Positions 14,416 to 53,676 of a stretch of 64,000 nucleotides of DNA are shown here, in pieces. A model generated the notes under the pieces. That model searched no databases and was not told the origin of the DNA. It saw nothing but the letters and a program-made list of their open reading frames with translations. This DNA comes from Candidatus Binatia bacterium (lineage in GTDB: Bacteria; Desulfobacterota; Binatia; UBA9968; JAJDTQ01). Made by a program: the position numbers and the translations under genes. Within the stretch, counting starts at the first letter, position 1. Each line of letters opens with the position of its first letter. Location of the stretch: the NCBI GenBank assembly GCA_951813575.1, contig OX638375.1, positions 744,001-808,000 on the forward strand, in the 5' to 3' direction.

Positions 14416-15669
14416 ATGCCCACGCCCCCTACCCCCAAGGCCTTCTTCAAGGTCGTGACGCCGGCGGAGGCCCTGGAGCTGCTTCGCCAGGTGTCCGCGG
14501 TGGACTCCGAAGTCGTCGACACCGTCGAGGCCCGGGGCCGCGTCCTGGCCGAGGACCTCCATTCCCGCGCCGACCTGCCCCACTTCGACCGGGCGGGCAT
14601 GGACGGTTACGCCGTCCTGGCCCGGGACACCTTCGGCGCCAGCACCGGCCTGCCGGCCTACCTGACACTGGCCGGAACCGTGGAAATGGGCCGGGCAGTC
14701 ACCCGCCGGCTGCTTCCCCGCGAAGCCATGTGCATCTCCACCGGCGGCATGCTGCCGCCCGGGAGCGACGCCGTGGTGATGGTCGAGCACACCGAGGAGA
14801 CCGGCGACGGCGCGGTGGAGATCCACCGGGCCGCCTCGCCCTGGCTCAACGTCATACGGGTCGGCGACGACATCCGGGCCGGCGACCCGGTGTTCCCCCG
14901 CGGGCGCCGGTTGCGGGCCCACGACCTCGGCGCCCTGACCGGCATCGGCATCGCTTCGGTCCGAGTCTACCGCAAGCCGCGGGTGACCCTCGTCTCCACC
15001 GGCGACGAGATCGTTGCCGCGGACCGGGAGCCGCGTCCCGGGCAGGTGCGGAACATCAACCAGCATTCGCTGGCGGGGCTCGTGGCCGAGTGCGGAGCCG
15101 AGCTCAACGACTTGGGCGTCGTGGCCGACGACGCCGGCGACCTGCGCGCCGCCCTGGCGGCGGGACTGGACTGGGGCGACCTGGTGCTGCTGTCCGGCGG
15201 CAGCTCCATGGGCACCCGCGACATGGCGGTGGACGTGATCCGGTCGCTGCCCCAAGCGGGTATCCTCTTTCACGGCATCTCCGTCAGCCCGGGGAAACCC
15301 ACCATCTACGCCCGGGCCGCGGGGAAACCCGTGCTGGGGCTCCCGGGGTATCCGGTATCCGCGCTGGTGATATTCGATCTGTTCGCGGCACCCTTGATCC
15401 GCGCCCTGTCGGGCGAAAACCCGCCGGCCGCCGGCGCGCGGCGCAACACCGTCCGGGCCGTGATGGACACCAACGTGTCGTCCCAGACCGGCCGCGAGGA
15501 CTACCTGCGCGTCACCCTGGAACGACGCGGCGACGTGCTCCATGCCTCGCCGCTGCCGAGCAAGTCGGGCGCCATCTTCACCCTGGTCAAGGCCGACGGC
15601 ATGGTCCGCATCGACCTCAACCGCGAAGGACTCGAACAGGGCGAGGAGGTGGAGGTGCTGCTTTTCTGA
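14416..15669 (+). CDS. moeA: Molybdopterin molybdenumtransferase MoeA
   Basis: Inserts molybdate into adenylylated molybdopterin to make the molybdenum cofactor. 417 residues with the MoeA domain order: N-terminal VTPAEALELLRQV and LPHFDRAGMDGYAVLA, linker VMVEHTEETGDG, and the MoaB/Mog-like core with VTLVSTGDEIV, the GGSSMGTRDM loop and SVSPGKPTIYAR, then VLGLPGYPVSALVIF. The C-terminal beta domain is complete. A second MoeA-like gene follows 49 bases downstream, the usual tandem arrangement in organisms with several molybdo- or tungsto-enzymes. Confidence 0.95.
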   Translation: MPTPPTPKAFFKVVTPAEALELLRQVSAVDSEVVDTVEARGRVLAEDLHSRADLPHFDRAGMDGYAVLARDTFGASTGLPAYLTLAGTVEMGRAVTRRLLPREAMCISTGGMLPPGSDAVVMVEHTEETGDGAVEIHRAASPWLNVIRVGDDIRAGDPVFPRGRRLRAHDLGALTGIGIASVRVYRKPRVTLVSTGDEIVAADREPRPGQVRNINQHSLAGLVAECGAELNDLGVVADDAGDLRAALAAGLDWGDLVLLSGGSSMGTRDMAVDVIRSLPQAGILFHGISVSPGKPTIYARAAGKPVLGLPGYPVSALVIFDLFAAPLIRALSGENPPAAGARRNTVRAVMDTNVSSQTGREDYLRVTLERRGDVLHASPLPSKSGAIFTLVKADGMVRIDLNREGLEQGEEVEVLLF

Positions 15670-15718
15670 TACCCTGCTCCCTGAAACCGTTCGGAGACAG
15701 GGACACGTTCGGGGACAC

Positions 15719-17653
15719 ATGGCGCGAAAACGGTACCTCAAGAAAACTCCGCTGGAGCAGGCGCGCGAGCTGTTCCTGAGCCGCGTTGACGAGACCGGCC
15801 TGGAGGACGAGACCGTGGACGTCGGCCAGGCGCTCCACCGCGTCACCGCCGAGCCGGTGTTCGCGAAGCTGTCCTCGCCGCACTACCACGGTTCCGCCAT
15901 GGACGGGATCTGCGTGCGGGCGGAGGACACCTTCGGAGCCACGGAGTTCGCGCCCCGCGAGCTCCGGCTGCTCACGGACGCGGCCGAGCCGAGCCGCCGC
16001 TTCGCCTACCTGGACACCGGCCAGCCGCTGCCGCCCTGGGCCAACGCGGTGATCATGATCGAGCAGGTCCGGGAGGTCGACGAGACCACCGTGTCCATCG
16101 ACCAGGCCGCCACCCCGTGGCAGAACGTGCGCCTGGTGGGCGAGGACGTGGTGGCTACCGAGTTGCTGTTGCCGCGCAGCCACCGGCTGAGGCCCTACGA
16201 CCTCGGCGCCATCCTGGCGGCGGGCCACACCACGGTGCGGGTCAAGGCGCGTCCCCGGGTGGCGATCCTGCCCACCGGCGACGAGATCACCGCTCCGGGA
16301 GAGCCGGCCGCGGCCGGCCAGATCATCGATTTCAATTCCACCGTGCTGGCGGCCATGGTCACCGAGTGCGGCGGCACGCCCGTCATCTTCCCCGCCGTCC
16401 CGGACGACCCCGCGCTGTTGAAACAGGCCCTCGGCGAAGCCTTGAGGGACCATCACCTGGTGGCGCTCATCGCCGGATCGTCGGCCGGCGAGCACGACTT
16501 CACCGCCGAGGTCATCGACGACGCGGGAGAGTTGCTGGTGCACGGCATCGAGGTCATGCCCGGCAAACCCGCCGTCCTCGGGGTGGCGGCGGGCAGGCCC
16601 GTCATCGGCATCCCCGGCTACCCGGTCTCCGCAATCGTCGTCGCCCGGGAGCTCCTCCAGCCCGCCTTGCAGCGCCTTCTGGGCGCAAGCCCGGGCTCTC
16701 CCGCCCGGGTCCGCGCCGTCGCGCCCCGGAAGATCCCCTCCCGGCTGGGCCTGGAGGAGTTCGTCCGGGTCACGCTGGGGAGAGTCGCGGACAGGCTCAT
16801 GGCCGTCCCGCTGGCGCGCGGCGCGGGCGTTATCAGCACCATGGTCCGGGCCGACGGCTTCCTGCGGATCCCGGGGATGGTGGAAGGCATCAACGCCGGC
16901 GAGGAGGTGGACGTCGAGCTGCTGCGCTCACCCGAAGAGGTGGAGCACACGATCCTGTGCACGGGCAGCCATGATCTCTCCATCAGCGTGCTGGAGGACC
17001 AGCTCAAGCGCCGGGACCCGCGGCTCAAGATCGCCACCGCCAACGTCGGAAGTCTCGGCGGACTCCATTCCATCCGCCGCGGCGAGACGCACATGGCGGG
17101 CACCCACCTGCTGGACCCGGCCACCGGCGCCTACAACGTCCCGGACATCGAGCGGGTGATGCCCGGGTTGCCCGTCGTCCTCGTACACTGCGTCAAGCGC
17201 CGGCAGGGGCTGCTGATCCCCCGCGGCAACCCCAAGGAACTGTCGGGCATCGCCGATCTGGGCCATCCGGGCCTGCGGTTCGTCAACCGCCAACCAGGCT
17301 CGGGTACACGGGTGCTGCTGGACTACAAGCTCGCACAACTCCACATGAATGCGAGCGCCATCCAGGGCTACGAGCACGAGGAGTTCACGCACATGGCCGT
17401 CGCCGTTGCCGTTGCCAGCGGCCTCGCGGACGTCGGCCTGGGTATTCTATCGGCCGCCGATGCCCTTGGACTGGATTTCATTCCGGTAGGCGACGAGCAA
17501 TACGATCTTCTGATGCTGCGGTCGTTCTACGAGTCGCCCGCCGGGGCCACGCTGCTGGCCGTCATCCGCTCCGAGGAATTCCGGCGGGCCATGCACTCCC
17601 TCGGCGGCTACGACACCGGCGAAACGGGTGCCATCCTCTACGAGCAGGGATGA
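15719..17653 (+). CDS. MoeA fused to a periplasmic-binding-protein-like domain
   Basis: From the ATG at 15719 the protein has 644 residues. Residues 1-405 or so form a MoeA domain (SSPHYHGSAMDGICVRA, VAILPTGDEITAPGE, AGSSAGEHDFTAEVI, GIPGYPVSAIVVARE). Residues 415-640 form a PBP-like domain of the ModE-associated/substrate-binding type (ILCTGSHDLSISVLEDQLKR, HMAGTHLLDPATGAYNV, the LIPRGNPKELSGIADL segment, FVNRQPGSGTRVLLDYKL, VGLGILSAADALGLDFIPVGDEQYDLL). The combination is known in molybdenum/tungsten cofactor loci, where the PBP part is thought to sense molybdate or tungstate. Its location after moeA suggests a paired role; metal preference is unknown. Confidence 0.93.
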   Translation: MARKRYLKKTPLEQARELFLSRVDETGLEDETVDVGQALHRVTAEPVFAKLSSPHYHGSAMDGICVRAEDTFGATEFAPRELRLLTDAAEPSRRFAYLDTGQPLPPWANAVIMIEQVREVDETTVSIDQAATPWQNVRLVGEDVVATELLLPRSHRLRPYDLGAILAAGHTTVRVKARPRVAILPTGDEITAPGEPAAAGQIIDFNSTVLAAMVTECGGTPVIFPAVPDDPALLKQALGEALRDHHLVALIAGSSAGEHDFTAEVIDDAGELLVHGIEVMPGKPAVLGVAAGRPVIGIPGYPVSAIVVARELLQPALQRLLGASPGSPARVRAVAPRKIPSRLGLEEFVRVTLGRVADRLMAVPLARGAGVISTMVRADGFLRIPGMVEGINAGEEVDVELLRSPEEVEHTILCTGSHDLSISVLEDQLKRRDPRLKIATANVGSLGGLHSIRRGETHMAGTHLLDPATGAYNVPDIERVMPGLPVVLVHCVKRRQGLLIPRGNPKELSGIADLGHPGLRFVNRQPGSGTRVLLDYKLAQLHMNASAIQGYEHEEFTHMAVAVAVASGLADVGLGILSAADALGLDFIPVGDEQYDLLMLRSFYESPAGATLLAVIRSEEFRRAMHSLGGYDTGETGAILYEQG

Positions 17654-17691: not shown

Positions 17692-17778
17692 TGGTGCCGG
17701 GAGCCGGACTTGAACCGGCACAGGCCGAGGCCCGCGGGATTTTAAGTCCCGTGTGTCTACCCATTCCACCATCCCGGC
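17692..17778 (-). tRNA. tRNA-Leu (anticodon UAA)
   Basis: On the minus strand the 87-nt sequence begins GCCGGGA and ends TCCCGGC-A-CCA, giving a perfect 7-bp acceptor stem with an encoded CCA. The anticodon stem-loop GGGACTTAAAATCCC presents UAA. A long variable arm (class II) and a TTCAAGT T-loop flanked by GCCGG/CCGGC complete the leucine-type cloverleaf. It lies between the convergent moeA-PBP gene and the ABC permease gene; no integrase or duplicated 3' end is visible nearby. Confidence 0.97.
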
Positions 17779-23468: not shown

Positions 23469-23621
23469 GATGCGCCACCTCCGGTCCGCGTTCAGGTGAC
23501 CCCCCTATAGGCCAGGTCGTCGCGGCCCGTCAAGGGTTCGCCGCCGCGCCCTTGCATGGCATCCGGGTCTTCGCTACCGTGGTCCGTGTCGTCCAGTCCG
23601 TCAAAGACAAGGAGGCCTTCC

Positions 23622-24950
23622 ATGAAACGCGTGGCACACGTCGTGAACCAGTTCTTCGCCGGCATCGGCGGCGAAGAGAAGGCGGATGTCGCCGCCGGAA
23701 CCCTCGAAACCCTGGCCGGGCCGTCGCGGGGGCTGCAACGGCTGCTGAAGGACGAGGCGGAGGTGGCGCTCACCATCTACTTCGGCGACAACCACTTTCA
23801 CGAAGAGCCCGAGGAGGCCCGGGCCGCCCTCCTGAAGGAGATCGAGGCGGCGGACGCGGAGGTGATCGTGCTCGGGCCGGCGTTCAATGCCGGCCGCTAC
23901 GGTCTGGCCTGCGTCGAGATCGGCCACATGGTCGCCACGGAGCTGGACCGCGTGTGCGTCACCGCCATGCACGAGGACAACCCGGCGGTGGACACCTACC
24001 GCCAATACCACGACCCTCGGCTTTTCCTCTTCCCCACCGCGGAGACCGCCGGCGGCATGGGCAAGGCCCTGGAGGATCTGGCGCGGTTCGTCCTCGAGCG
24101 GCTCCGGGAAGAGCCCGTGGGGGCGGCGGAGGACGAGGGCTACCTGTCCCGAGGCATCCGCATCCAGGAAGAGAGCGGCCGGACCGGAGCCGACCGCGCC
24201 CTCGACATGCTGCTCGACAAGATCGAGGGCCGGGCCTTCGCCACCGAGATTCCCATGCAGACCTGGGACCGGGTGGCGCCGGCCGCCGCGGTGAAGCAGG
24301 TGGGCAAGGCCAAGATCGCGCTGGTCACCACCAGCGGCGTGGTGCCGTGGGGGAACCCGGACGGTTTCAAGACCTTCCGCAACACCTTCTGGCGCAAGTA
24401 TCCCGTGGCGGAGCTCAAGACCATGGAACCCGGCATGTGGGAAGCCGTGCACGGCGGATACAACGTGGCCAACATGAACGCGAACCCGCTGTACGGGGTT
24501 CCCCTGGACGCCCTGCGGGAGCTCCAGCAGGAAGGGAAATACGAGGACCTCTACCCCGCCTACTACGTCATCCCCGGCAACCAGGGATCGCCCGCGGCCA
24601 TGCAGCGGGTGGGCCAGGAGATCGCGGCGGAGATCAAGGCCAACAGCGTGGACGCCGTGCTGTTGGTGAGCACGTGAGGCACCTGCAGTCGCAGCGGAGC
24701 TGTGATCAGTAAAGAGCTGGACCGTGCCGGAGTTCCCGTGTCGATGATCAGCGCCATGTTCCCGCTGGCGGAGCAGGTGGGCGCCAGCCGCATCGTCAAG
24801 GGCGTCAAGATTCCCCATCCCTGCGGCGACCCGAGCCTGCCGCCGGAGGTCGACGAGAAGCTGCGCAAGTCCATCGTCGAGACCGCCCTCCACGCGCTCG
24901 AGGAAGAAATCGAGGAGAGCACCGTGTTCACGCCGGAAGCGGCGTCATGA
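23622..24950 (+). CDS. grdB: Glycine/sarcosine/betaine reductase component B, selenoprotein (GrdB-like), TGA read as selenocysteine
   Basis: The gene starts at ATG 23622 behind an AAGGAGG site. A TGA at 24675-24677 falls at residue 352. It is not the end: the same frame continues for 90 more codons and matches the GrdB C-terminus. Around the TGA the protein reads VLLVST-U-GTCSRSGAVISKELDRAG and later IPHPCGDPSLPPE. In GrdB of amino-acid-fermenting clostridia this position is the catalytic selenocysteine of a U-x-x-C motif. Total about 442 residues, the family length. Component B binds the substrate and forms a selenium-bound carboxymethyl group with GrdE. A SECIS-like hairpin follows the TGA. 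Here UxxCxxC has become UxxCxxS. Actual decoding depends on SelA/B/C genes outside the window. Confidence 0.9.
24689..24705 (+). promoter_or_regulatory. Bacterial SECIS-like hairpin for UGA decoding
   Basis: Eleven bases after the TGA of grdB, TCGCAGC pairs with GCTGTGA (7 bp, one G-U) around a GGA loop. Stem position, short loop and a G in the first loop positions fit the general bacterial SECIS rule that the loop lies about 16-37 bases downstream of UGA. The hairpin is inside the coding sequence, as in other bacterial selenoprotein genes. Pairing was done by eye. Confidence 0.7.
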
Positions 24951-26272
24951 GCGCGAGCCGGCATGCCACGCCGCTGGAGCTGGCGGATTTCCCGGTGGAC
25001 GACCTCCGGTTCGGCGAAAAGCTGCACTACGCCGGCCGGAGACTGGAAGTGGATGAAGCCGAGCTGGTGGAGATCGCTTCACGGGACCGCAGGATCCTCT
25101 CCGCCAGGCTCGACATCGTGCGTCCCGGCGAGCGGGTGCGGGTGACCGGGATCCGCGACGTGGTGGAGCCCAGGGTCAAGGTGGACGGCACCGGCCAGGT
25201 GTTCCCCGGTATCACCAACCCGGTGGTTCCGGTAGGCGCCGGCCGTACCCACCGGCTGTCCGGCATGACCCTCATCACCACGGCCGAATACGAGGGCACC
25301 ATCCGCACCGGCACCACCGCCCAGCGAAGCGCCATCCTCGACATGTGGGGGCCGGGGGCGGAGCTCACGGGCTTCAGTCGGTTGCCGGGTCTGGTGCTGA
25401 CTTTCCGGCTCCCGCCGGACCTGATCGAGGCCGAGGCCCACCAGGCGATACAGGGCGCCGAGTACAGGGTGGCGCAACGGCTTGCCGAGGCCACCGTCGC
25501 GGCCGAGCCCGCCGACGTCCACACGCACGGCGCCGCCCACGGAAACCCGCGCCTGCCCAAGACCGTGGTCATCGTGGGCTGCATCACCGAATCGGAGCAT
25601 CTGCCCTCCGGCCTGGGCTACTACGGACTGCCGGTCCGCGAATCACTGAGCACCGTGGTTCATCCCAACGAACTGCTGGACGGCGCGGTCACGGGCAGCA
25701 CCATGAAGACCATCGCCTACTCCCCGACCACCTGGGACTGGCAAAACCAGCCGCTGGCCCTGAGCGTGTCCCGGGAGCACGGCCGCCGGCTCGATTTCGC
25801 CGGCGTGGTGCTGCAACGCATACGCTTCGAGAGCTTCCGGGAGAAGGAAGTGGCGGCGCACAACGCGGCACAGGTGGCCCGGGCGCTGGGCGCGGAGGCG
25901 GCCCTCGTCACCTGGATCGGCTCCGGCAATGCCTTCCTGGAGGTCATGCTGACCGTGCATGCGTGTGAGCAGAAGGGGATCAAGACCGTGCTGGTCACCT
26001 ACGAGTACGGCGGCAAGGACGGCGTGGACTCGCCGCTCCTGTTCTACGATGACACGGCCGATGCGGTGGTGAGCACCGGTAGCCGTGACCTTGCCCTGGA
26101 GCTGCCGCCCGCCGACCGGGTTGTCGGCGCCTACGAACGGCTCCAGGTCCTCAACTACCCCGGCGCCCCCGTGGTCTCGGCCCTCGACGCCATGAGCCTT
26201 GACGCCGTCGACGCCATTATCGGCGGCACGGACCTGTGGGGCGGCCGGAACTGGACCTGCCGGGCACACTGA
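24947..26272 (+). CDS. Glycine/sarcosine/betaine reductase component B subunit (GrdE-like)
   Basis: 441 residues; its ATG overlaps the grdB stop (ATGA), so the two are coupled. Family segments: RRLEVDEAELVEIASRD, DIVRPGERVRVTGIRDVVEPRVKVDG, PGITNPVVPVGAGRTHRLSG, GTDLWGGRNW near the end. In clostridial GrdE the proprotein is cleaved at an Asn-Cys pair and the cysteine becomes the pyruvoyl group. The matching stretch here is LLDGAVTGSTMKTIAYSP, with Ser251-Thr252 in place of Asn-Cys, so a pyruvoyl cofactor formed in the usual way looks unlikely. The alignment to GrdE is from memory. The reductase may use a different chemistry or substrate. Confidence 0.88.
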   Translation: MSASRHATPLELADFPVDDLRFGEKLHYAGRRLEVDEAELVEIASRDRRILSARLDIVRPGERVRVTGIRDVVEPRVKVDGTGQVFPGITNPVVPVGAGRTHRLSGMTLITTAEYEGTIRTGTTAQRSAILDMWGPGAELTGFSRLPGLVLTFRLPPDLIEAEAHQAIQGAEYRVAQRLAEATVAAEPADVHTHGAAHGNPRLPKTVVIVGCITESEHLPSGLGYYGLPVRESLSTVVHPNELLDGAVTGSTMKTIAYSPTTWDWQNQPLALSVSREHGRRLDFAGVVLQRIRFESFREKEVAAHNAAQVARALGAEAALVTWIGSGNAFLEVMLTVHACEQKGIKTVLVTYEYGGKDGVDSPLLFYDDTADAVVSTGSRDLALELPPADRVVGAYERLQVLNYPGAPVVSALDAMSLDAVDAIIGGTDLWGGRNWTCRAH

Positions 26273-28804: not shown

Positions 28805-29860
28805 ATGACACGCATTCTTTCAGGGACGATCCTGGCATTCGCTCTGTCGGCGCTGGCGGCAGCGCCGGCCCTGGCCGACGTATCCCTCGACGGCAAGACC
28901 GTGAGAGTGATCGTCGCCTCCAACGCCGGAGGCGGCACCGACCTCGCCGGCCGGCTCATCAACCGCTTCATGAAGAAGTACCTGCCCGGAAGCCCGCGCT
29001 TCGTGTACCAATACATGGGCGCGGGCGGCGGCAAGATCAAGGCGGCCAACTATCTCGCCAACCGCATCAAGCCGGACGGCTTGACCCTCATGAATACCGA
29101 CTCGAGCCCGCTGCAACCCCACATCCTGCGCAGGAAGGTCGTCAAGTACGACCCGCGCAAGTTCATTCCCATCGGCGGGGTCCATCGCGGCGGCAGCGTG
29201 CTGTTCGTCCGCAAGGACGCCCACAAGCGGCTCGCCGACAAGAACGCCGCCAAGGTCAACGTCGGCGGCACCAGTGGAGCGCGGGCATGGCAGGCCATGA
29301 ACGTGTGGGGCGCGGAGTTCCTGGGATGGAACCTCAAGTGGATCGTGGGCTACCCGGGCACCGGCGCGCTGGTCAAGGCCATCAGCCAGGGCGAGATAGA
29401 CATCCTGGGCACGCAGAACGCCTACATCATCAACGAGCTCAAGGAAGCGGGCGTCATCGACCTCATCGCCCAGGAAGGGACCCGCGACGCCGAGGGCTAC
29501 TCGCCGCGTTCGTCGTTCAAGGACGTCGCCATCTTCCCGGAGCTGATGGCGGAGAAGAACGTCGGCAAGCTGGCGATGGCGGGCTACGAGTCCTGGATGG
29601 GACCCTCCACCGTGGACAAGTGGCTGACGCTGCCTCCGAAGACCCCGCCGGAGTACGTCAAGGCCTATCGCGATGCTTTCCAGAAGGCCGTGAACGATCC
29701 CGAGTTCCTCAAGATCGCGCGCAAGCAGTTCAGCATCGACCTGACCTCCATGACCGGCAAGACGCTCGAGAAGCGCATCGTGCAGATCGTGGATGCGCCC
29801 AAGGAAGCCCTCGACTACGCGTCGAAGCTGCGCAAGAAGTACGACGTTCCCGAGCGCTGA
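28805..29860 (+). CDS. Tripartite tricarboxylate transporter substrate-binding protein (TctC/Bug family)
   Basis: 351 residues with a signal peptide (ILAFALSALAAAPALAD) and the Bug-family fold: TVRVIVASNAGGGTDLAGRLINRF near the mature N-terminus, VNVGGTSGARAWQAMNVWGAEF in the middle and TPPEYVKAYRDAFQKAVNDPEF near the end. It captures a small carboxylate in the periplasm and delivers it to the TctAB permease, which is encoded next on the same strand. Ligand identity cannot be read. The gene follows an AAGGAGAAG site. Confidence 0.92.
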   Translation: MTRILSGTILAFALSALAAAPALADVSLDGKTVRVIVASNAGGGTDLAGRLINRFMKKYLPGSPRFVYQYMGAGGGKIKAANYLANRIKPDGLTLMNTDSSPLQPHILRRKVVKYDPRKFIPIGGVHRGGSVLFVRKDAHKRLADKNAAKVNVGGTSGARAWQAMNVWGAEFLGWNLKWIVGYPGTGALVKAISQGEIDILGTQNAYIINELKEAGVIDLIAQEGTRDAEGYSPRSSFKDVAIFPELMAEKNVGKLAMAGYESWMGPSTVDKWLTLPPKTPPEYVKAYRDAFQKAVNDPEFLKIARKQFSIDLTSMTGKTLEKRIVQIVDAPKEALDYASKLRKKYDVPER

Positions 29861-29947: not shown

Positions 29948-30002
29948 GTGGCACACGGGCACGCAGGGACGGCATGATTGCCGGCAGCCGCCGGACACCG
30001 TG

Positions 30003-31967
30003 ATGCTTGACGCCGCCTACCAAGGCCTTCTGGGCATCCTGGAGCCTCAGGCCATGCTGTTGATGGTGGGGGGCGTCCTTTTGAGCAGCGTGTTCGCCGC
30101 GCTTCCCGGCGTCGGCGTGCTGCTCATCCTCACCGTCGTCCTGCCCTTCAGCCTGACCATGAGCCCCTACCACGCCATCGCCTTCCTGCTGGGCATGGGC
30201 GCGGTCTCCAACACGGCCAACACCTTCCCCTCGGTGCTCATCGCCGTGCCCGGCAGCGCCGGGTCCCAGGCCACCATCCTCGACGGCTACCCCATGGCCC
30301 GCAAGGGCGAGGCGAAGCGCGCCTTCGGCGCCGCGTTCATGGCGTCCGCCATCGGGGGCGTGCTGGGCGCCATCGTGCTGCTGGCGTCCCTTCCGATCCT
30401 TCGTCCGCTGGTGCTGAGCTTCGGCTCGCCGGAGTTCTTCGTGCTGGTGCTGTGGGGCCTGAGCGCCATCGGCGTCCTCAGCGGCAAGGCCCCGATCAAG
30501 GGGCTCATGGCGGCCATCCTGGGGCTCCTCATCGCCACCGTCGGGGTGGACGAGAAGACCGCCATCGAGCGCTTTTCCCTGGACACCGCCTACCTGTGGG
30601 ATGGGGTCAACGTCATCCTCATCGGCCTCGGCCTCTTTGCCGTGCCCGAGCTCATCGACCTGGCCGTGCGGCGGACCAGCATCTCCGAGACGGAGAACCT
30701 CGGCAGCGGTCTCGTGGAGGGCATGAAGGACGTGTTCCGGCACTGGTGGCTGGTGGTGCGTTGCAGCGCCATCGGCGTGTGGGTGGGGGTGCTGCCGGGG
30801 CTGGGCAGCAGCGTCGCCGACTGGTTCGCCTACGCCCACGCCGTGCAGACCGAAAAACACAGCGAGCGCTTCGGCGCCGGCGACGTGCGCGGCGTCATCG
30901 CCCCCGAAAGCTCGAACAACGCCAAGGAGGGGGGCGCGCTGATTCCCACCATTGCCTTCGGCATCCCGGGCAGCACCTCCCTGGCCATCATACTGGCGGC
31001 CTTCGTCTCCGTGGGCATCCACCCGGGCAGCCGGATGCTCACGGACCAGTTGCACCTGACGCTGGCCATGGTGTGGGTGCTGGTGCTGTCCAATCTCATG
31101 GCCACCTCCCTGGCCATGGGCTTTGCCGGGACCTTTGCCCGTCTCTCGCTGCAGCCCTTCTACGTCATCGTGCCCATCACCCTGATGCTGTGCGCCTCGG
31201 CGTCGTTCGCCGCCAGCTACGCCCACGAGGATCTGTACGCGTTCCTGACTTTCTCCGCGGTCGGCTACCTCATGAAGCTGTTCGACTGGCCCCGGCCCCC
31301 GGTGCTCGTGGCCGTTGTCCTGGGCTTCCAGATGGAGACCTACCTCTGGCTCTCCATCGCCCGGTACGACTTCGCCTGGCTGCTGCGCCCTTCCGTGCTG
31401 CTGTTGCTGGCGCTGGTGGTCTTCACCCTGCTGCTGCCGGCGATCCGCAAGCGGCGTGAGCAGGCGCGGGACAATGCCCCCGCCGAAGCGCCGGACGATC
31501 CACGGCTGAGGATCGGCAACAGCCTGTTCACGCTGTGCTTCGTGGCGCTGCTGGCCTCGGCCGTGAGCCTGTCGCTGGAATGGCCGCTGCGGAGCGCGCT
31601 CATCATCTACTCCCTGGCGGGGGTCGGTATCCCGCTGGCGCTGCTGCAGATCGGCCTGGATCTCCTGCGAATCCGGCGGCACCGGACCCTCGCCGCCGCA
31701 CCCGAGGCCCCGGCCGGCGCCCCGGACGTCCTGCGCCGCACCGCGGAGGTGCTGCTCTGGATCGCCGCGCTCGTGGGCGGCATCATCCTCATCGGCTTCC
31801 ACGTGACCCTGCCCCTGTTCACCGCCGGCTATGCCTTCGTCTACGGCGCCCGCTGGCACGTGGCCGTGCTCTTGGGAGCGTTGGCCGAAGGCTACCTGTA
31901 TCTGGTATTTGATGAGTTGCTGCATGTCTTGTGGCCCGAGCCGCTGCTGCTGTCGAGCTGGAGCTGA
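30003..31967 (+). CDS. Tripartite tricarboxylate transporter permease, TctA-TctB fusion
   Basis: 655 residues with many membrane helices. Residues 1-485 are a TctA (large permease) domain: ALPGVGVLLILTVVLPF, AVPGSAGSQATILDGYPMARKG, and the TctA signature APESSNNAKEGGALIPTIAFGIPGSTSLAI. After a basic linker (IRKRREQARDN), residues 505-655 add four helices that look like TctB. Normally TctA and TctB are separate genes; here one polypeptide seems to supply both. It sits directly after tctC. A GTG immediately upstream (30000) is an alternative start. Confidence 0.92.
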   Translation: MLDAAYQGLLGILEPQAMLLMVGGVLLSSVFAALPGVGVLLILTVVLPFSLTMSPYHAIAFLLGMGAVSNTANTFPSVLIAVPGSAGSQATILDGYPMARKGEAKRAFGAAFMASAIGGVLGAIVLLASLPILRPLVLSFGSPEFFVLVLWGLSAIGVLSGKAPIKGLMAAILGLLIATVGVDEKTAIERFSLDTAYLWDGVNVILIGLGLFAVPELIDLAVRRTSISETENLGSGLVEGMKDVFRHWWLVVRCSAIGVWVGVLPGLGSSVADWFAYAHAVQTEKHSERFGAGDVRGVIAPESSNNAKEGGALIPTIAFGIPGSTSLAIILAAFVSVGIHPGSRMLTDQLHLTLAMVWVLVLSNLMATSLAMGFAGTFARLSLQPFYVIVPITLMLCASASFAASYAHEDLYAFLTFSAVGYLMKLFDWPRPPVLVAVVLGFQMETYLWLSIARYDFAWLLRPSVLLLLALVVFTLLLPAIRKRREQARDNAPAEAPDDPRLRIGNSLFTLCFVALLASAVSLSLEWPLRSALIIYSLAGVGIPLALLQIGLDLLRIRRHRTLAAAPEAPAGAPDVLRRTAEVLLWIAALVGGIILIGFHVTLPLFTAGYAFVYGARWHVAVLLGALAEGYLYLVFDELLHVLWPEPLLLSSWS

Positions 31968-52287: not shown

Positions 52288-52381
52288 GCTGATGTCCCTC
52301 TCCGCGGTGAGGCCTTGCCGCCTTGACAAGGCCTCACCGCACGGCTAGTGTTCCGTTCCGACGGGCGGCCTCTCGGCCGCC

Positions 52382-52554
52382 CGGTCTTCAGGTCCCTTAC
52401 GGGATAACAGGGAAACCGGTTGAAATCCGGTGCGGTCCCGCCACTGTAAGTGGGAACCCTTGCCAGCGTGCCACTGTTCCCCACCCGGGAATGGGAAGGC
52501 GGCAAGGCGGTCGAAACGGCCAGCCCGCGAGCCAGGAGACCTACCTGAAGACCG
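52382..52554 (+). promoter_or_regulatory. Cobalamin riboswitch upstream of tonB
   Basis: The closing stem P1 is a perfect 11-bp pair, CGGTCTTCAGG at 52382-52392 with CCTGAAGACCG at 52544-52554. Inside are the class I core pieces: GGATAACAGGGAAACCGGT, GAAATCCGGTGCGGTCCCGCCACTGTAA and the B12 box GAGCCAGGAGACCTACC at 52529-52545. The tonB frame begins about 40 bases after it. Such elements repress downstream genes when adenosylcobalamin is abundant. Confidence 0.93.
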
Positions 52555-52595
52555 AAAGCAACCATGCTCTCCGAGGAGAGAGAGGGGGTCTCGCC

Positions 52596-53449: not shown

Positions 53450-53633
53450 ACCAAGACCTGAGGCCTGAAGACGGATGCCAGGGAAAGGGGTGCGAATCCC
53501 CTGCTGCCCCGCAACTGTAACGGCTACGAAAACCGCAACTCGAGCCACTGCCCGTCCGGCGGGTGGGAAGGCGCGGTGAGTAGGCCGGCAGCCGACACGG
53601 ACTGCCAGAAAGCCCAAGCCAGGAGACCTGTCC
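53450..53633 (+). promoter_or_regulatory. Cobalamin riboswitch upstream of btuB
   Basis: Core pieces are GGATGCCAGGGAAAGGGGTGCG, GAATCCCCTGCTGCCCCGCAACTGTAA around 53474-53520, and the B12 box AAGCCAGGAGACCTGTCC at 53616-53633. The 5' limit is approximate because P1 pairs less clearly than in the upstream copy. The btuB start lies 43 bases after the box, with a GGAAAGGAAG ribosome site in between. Confidence 0.93.
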
Positions 53634-53676
53634 CTCTTCCATCCACAATCCGCCTTCGCGGGAAAGGAAGATTGCC

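Follow-up and report, generated by a model that had tools for sequence, protein, structure and literature searches.

An open reading frame of a Candidatus Binatia bacterium that is interrupted by a TGA codon raises the question of whether it is a broken gene or the gene of a selenoprotein and, in the latter case, what reaction its product could serve in this organism. Glycine-reductase chemistry, to which the frame points, is known mainly from anaerobes gaining ATP from acetyl phosphate. The window, i.e. the whole stretch of 64,000 nucleotides that was analysed, covers positions 744001–808000 of a single-contig genome of 4.21 Mb. A haem-copper oxidase (COX1) is encoded in the same genome, which bears out the respiratory setting supposed in the initial annotation, and the lineage is probably oxygen-respiring. 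Judging from the naming style of related metagenome-assembled genomes (MAGs) and from the sponge preference reported for some Binatota (PMC8262859), the organism may be associated with a sponge.

Read directly, the frame (23622–24950, + strand) starts at ATG 23622, just downstream of a Shine-Dalgarno sequence AGGAGG (23610–23615, + strand), meets the in-frame TGA at 24675–24677 (+ strand) and continues to a terminal TGA at 24948–24950 (+ strand). The resulting grdB-like product has 442 residues, the recoded UGA corresponding to Sec352 in the STUGTC site of LLVSTUGTCSRSGAVISKEL. Read through the UGA, it matched the profile TIGR01918 with 435 bits (cut-off 65) over residues 3–436 and PF07355 with 362 bits (cut-off 22). 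Since these matches span the whole frame, both halves belong to one GrdB, as the initial annotation had proposed. TGA was found at the selenocysteine site in all 41 distinct GrdB copies retrieved by motif. In a fuller set of 51 copies, which includes six references (clostridial, enterococcal or Photobacterium), TGA was read directly in 37, and the remaining 14 each contained exactly one in-frame TGA, with the site in the same alignment column. A sense cysteine codon in close relatives would have pointed to a nonsense mutation; instead, TGA stands in every copy, the hairpin described below is kept, and in relatives 91% identical the frame is open on both sides of the TGA. A general reassignment of TGA was rejected, since neighbouring genes and grdB itself end in TGA.

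Downstream of the UGA, a SECIS-like hairpin, TCGCAGC-GGA-GCTGTGA, was located at 24689–24705 (+ strand), its first paired base lying 12 bases after the UGA triplet; the consensus is TCGCAGC-GGN-GCTGYGA. When 18 distinct sequences were compared, the seven pairs were kept in 99.2% of cells and two pairs showed compensatory change, i.e. on both sides, whereas pairing fell to about 15% when the partner was slid by one base. In the 3′ arm, 35 of the 41 copies encode alanine by GCT and five by GCA, the latter all bearing a matching CGCTG 5′ arm. These two codons are rare elsewhere, occupying together 12% of the alanine positions in the upstream parts of the same grdB genes and 6% in the genes of the window. 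By folding energy alone, the SECIS stretch did not reach significance (z −0.16; the DNA is GC-rich), and for that reason the pair and codon evidence was used in its place; judged by this evidence, the hairpin is under selection.

The genome furthermore contains a tRNA-Sec with the anticodon tca and a selA-selB-selD cluster near 2.68 Mb. SelA and SelB scored 585 and 379 bits, respectively, against their profiles, and SelD is of the selenocysteine type and bears an in-frame TGA of its own. The supposition that this organism decodes UGA is thus backed by the presence of tRNA-Sec, SelA, SelB and SelD as well as by the hairpin. That the in-frame TGA is a nonsense mutation or a sequencing error, with two short proteins being made, was rejected as having practically no probability, because the TGA is conserved in all GrdB clades of the order between frames open on both sides, the hairpin 3′ of it is under selection and the selenocysteine machinery is complete. 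On the sequence evidence it is close to certain that the seeming stop codon is read as selenocysteine and that the enzyme gene is intact; annotation can easily mistake such genes for split or broken ones. The full-length profile match, the selenocysteine in a UxxC site with a SECIS hairpin and the paired GrdE place the product in the GrdB-type selenoprotein B superfamily (TIGR01918/PF07355).

The paired gene, at 24947–26272 (+ strand), encodes a GrdE-like component B subunit (PF09338, 297 bits) and overlaps the end of grdB by four bases, ATGA, its start codon being shared in part with the terminal TGA. In the Clostridioides difficile GrdE, the cysteine at residue 242 becomes the pyruvoyl group (PMC9908766), and the pyruvoyl cysteine of the Acetoanaerobium GrdE is residue 242 in the alignment. 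None of the 50 Binatia GrdE proteins aligned has a cysteine at this position, which is occupied by methionine in the window protein. Cys212 is conserved in 31 of 32 members of the window-type clade and is a new feature of that clade. The betaine GrdI and fluoroacetate FarE are also without processing cysteines (PMC10838667). It may be GrdB that carries the carbonyl thought to bind glycine (PMC9908766), and the loss of the cysteine from GrdE is therefore no proof of a non-amine substrate. A fourth GrdE-like gene of the genome, with no GrdB beside it, lies at 2.820 Mb (L033, 7677–8978, − strand). Its product is 62% identical to the window GrdE, and it adjoins a short-chain dehydrogenase gene and an amidohydrolase-like gene.

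It had been supposed that grdB stands here apart from the usual grdA/grdC/grdD set. This was not borne out: in addition to the adjacent GrdE-like gene, the same chromosome carries grdA at 2.892 Mb, having a CFVU site with an in-frame UGA, and next to it grdC (505 bits against a cut-off of 450). In the sister family, moreover, window-type grdB, grdE, grdC and grdA form one B-E-C-A string (G032, G090, G103 and G114; loci L130 and L131). The search for the remaining components, as suggested in the initial annotation, hence recovered GrdA and GrdC, but GrdD (NF040747) had no match in the own genome and exceeded its cut-off in none of 118 genomes of the class, and tblastn with the Enterococcus GrdD gave nothing beside any Binatia grdA. 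Most of the aligned Binatia GrdC proteins end roughly 35 residues before the Enterococcus GrdC. GrdD could have diverged past detection or been replaced.

Of the same 118 genomes, 20 encode a full-length GrdB, and 19 of these also have GrdA; leaving aside one 22-bit partial match, GrdA was found in none of the 98 others (Fisher p 5e-21, a value overstating the weight of the co-occurrence, since the genomes are related and do not count as independent). It is chiefly from this pattern that GrdB is taken to work with GrdA. A non-catabolic selenoprotein, which might for example detoxify peroxides or thiols in a cell exposed to oxygen, would accord with COX1 in the genome and with the reported peroxidase activity of GrdB (Grobe et al. 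2007), but the constant pairing with GrdE and the co-occurrence with both GrdA and GrdC make it very improbable, as does the expansion of copies into diverged clades, which suggests differing substrates.

That expansion is evident in the own genome, where two further GrdB-GrdE pairs, both with TGA, lie at 1.377 and 2.588 Mb, and three GrdB and four GrdE-like matches are kept in the genus members G000, G024, G060, G084 and G106. In sister-family loci one GrdB gene is often accompanied by two or three GrdE-like genes, and in a large MAG of the same order (G127; 8.3 Mb, 9% contamination; loci L127, L128, L129, L132 and L133) 27 GrdE-like matches were counted, some few being fragments. The lineage has copied and rewired a glycine-reductase-like machine. 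In G127, several of the GrdE-like matches stand in series with GrdB-like genes, in which TGA is kept, and with binding-protein genes. The second GrdE-GrdB pair of the genus (L014 4736–10129, L093, L094, L097 and L099) is directly followed in most of these genomes by TctC- and TctA-like genes, and L014 has a thiolase-type gene downstream of the pair. Many genomes of the class, e.g. in loci L059–L068, encode short proteins matching only positions 202–345 of PF07355; they occur outside the order with full-length GrdB and may be of the UGSC type or belong to another small family.

Downstream of grdBE in the window, two genes for VOC-family proteins (PF00903; 26419–26880 and 27932–28735, both + strand) are accompanied by genes for a TctC-like periplasmic binding protein (28805–29860, + strand; PF03401, 24.4 bits, just below the cut-off of 27) and a TctA-like transporter membrane protein (30000–31967, + strand; PF01970, 387 bits). 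All four remain downstream of grdBE in most relatives of the genus, and the latter two are candidates for substrate uptake. Genes for a Rieske protein, a cupin, a binding protein and an ABC permease are divergent from the grd genes in several, not all, relatives, and sister-family loci have genes for NMT1-type and type-8 binding proteins between their grd genes. Periplasmic binding proteins reach 1.9 per 10 kb near grd genes against a background of 0.9, a density inflated by several query proteins coming from the same loci. The link of binding proteins to grd genes is thus a weak one, and it suggests substrate uptake. Eleven TctC-like binding-protein matches follow one another in tandem in a sister-family genome (L138 5935–19990; G039:C1). 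Elsewhere in the window there are two cobalamin riboswitches about 1 kb apart (52373–52562 and 53456–53649, + strand), a second MoeA-like gene directly after the first (15542–17653, + strand), which by eye has a binding-protein-like C-terminal part, and a sole tRNA, tRNA-Leu (taa), at 17692–17778 (− strand).

From what the sequences contain, namely the recoding signals, the partner genes, the co-occurrence with GrdA, the lost cysteine and the lack of a detectable GrdD, we infer a reaction, substrate class, product and acyl acceptor. The preferred reading, to which we assign a probability of roughly 0.6, is that UGA recoding yields a GrdB-family selenoprotein that would form with GrdE a component B cleaving an imported alpha-substituted carboxylate and feeding GrdA/GrdC. 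In the family chemistry, attack of the selenolate on the alpha carbon gives a carboxymethyl-selenoether, which is reduced with protein A and ends as a thioester on protein C (PMC10298544, PMC13188914). In the window system, GrdB and the overlapping GrdE-like subunit would make up the substrate-specific component B, possibly joined by the GrdE-like protein encoded at 2.82 Mb in what would presumably be a two-GrdE complex. The selenolate of Sec352 would attack the alpha carbon of the imported carboxylate and expel the substituent, and the carboxyalkyl-selenoether so formed would pass to the selenoprotein GrdA and be reduced, with an acyl thioester arising on GrdC. Because GrdD was not found, the acyl group would probably leave GrdC differently, perhaps by transfer to CoA, instead of ending as acetyl phosphate via GrdC/GrdD. 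As GrdE lacks the pyruvoyl-forming cysteine, an amine bound to the pyruvoyl group as a Schiff base is probably not the substrate, a situation resembling that of betaine or fluoroacetate, and the targets are probably small imported acids other than glycine.

A wider reading, tentative and given somewhat less than even odds, is that oxygen-respiring Binatia possess a previously undescribed branch of the family, in which many exchangeable GrdB/GrdE modules tied to uptake proteins would serve one GrdA/GrdC hub without GrdD and pyruvoyl, cleaving C–X bonds of diverse small acids to acyl-CoA or free acid, not to acetyl phosphate. If this is true, the selenoether mechanism would have been reused, without GrdD or pyruvoyl and in a lineage that encodes a haem-copper oxidase, as a general breaker of C–X bonds in small acids. 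The genes of the window system offer a concrete means of testing which substituents such enzymes can remove.

With regard to known systems, the PDB contained no sequence relative of either subunit. The AlphaFold models, built from small alignments, were poor (pLDDT 65 for GrdB and 48 for GrdE), and a PDB fold search with the GrdB model gave no credible match, so that no structural argument is made. D-proline reductase PrdAB (TIGR04480, TIGR04483) is remotely homologous in both subunits (85 and 27 bits); however, PrdB matches the C-terminal half of GrdB only, whereas the window frame is a full-length GrdB. PrdA makes its pyruvoyl group from Cys421 (PMC9908766). Another comparable system is the fluoroacetate reductase FarBE (NF053623; PMC10838667), which consists of GrdB and GrdE relatives without pyruvoyl processing and is thought to use GrdA and GrdC (PMC10838667). 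A reductive dehalogenase of this type would agree with the match of the GrdE-like subunit to the FarE model and with the lack of pyruvoyl cysteines in FarE (PMC10838667), but it is unlikely, given that the match, 107 bits, is far below the FarE cut-off of 675 and that the neighbours differ, a radical-SAM farC and a farA-type antiporter not being recognised among those scanned. Furthermore, FarB is said to be without the CxxC residues, whereas the UxxC of the window protein retains one cysteine.

The known component B of glycine, sarcosine and betaine reductases (GrdBE, GrdFG and GrdHI; TIGR01918, PF07355, PF09338) shares with the window system full-length homology of both subunits, selenocysteine in UxxC, paired genes and both GrdA and GrdC in the genome. 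The window GrdB is 35–42% identical to the clostridial GrdB/F/H, and the betaine reductase GrdI also lacks the pyruvoyl cysteine, all of which would fit an ordinary component B feeding the usual pathway on betaine, sarcosine or glycine. Such an enzyme nevertheless appears rather doubtful, since the proteins fall far under the equivalog cut-offs of GrdB, GrdF, GrdH and GrdG and no GrdD was detected in the 118 genomes. The published motifs of glycine GrdB and sarcosine GrdF (taken from PMC9751293) matched four of six reference proteins and no Binatia protein, and in the tree the window-type GrdB proteins form a clade (24 rows, 100/100) apart from the references, including the two of the betaine type. 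No description of Grd genes in Binatota was found in the open-access literature searched and, judged on that literature, the component B proposed here appears to be a variant of the Grd family not previously described. Compared with the known component B, it is without the glycine/sarcosine motif, the pyruvoyl cysteine and GrdD and forms a clade of its own; the second cysteine of the known UxxCxxC is a serine in the window GrdB, and, unlike the known systems, the sister genomes often have two or more GrdE genes per GrdB.
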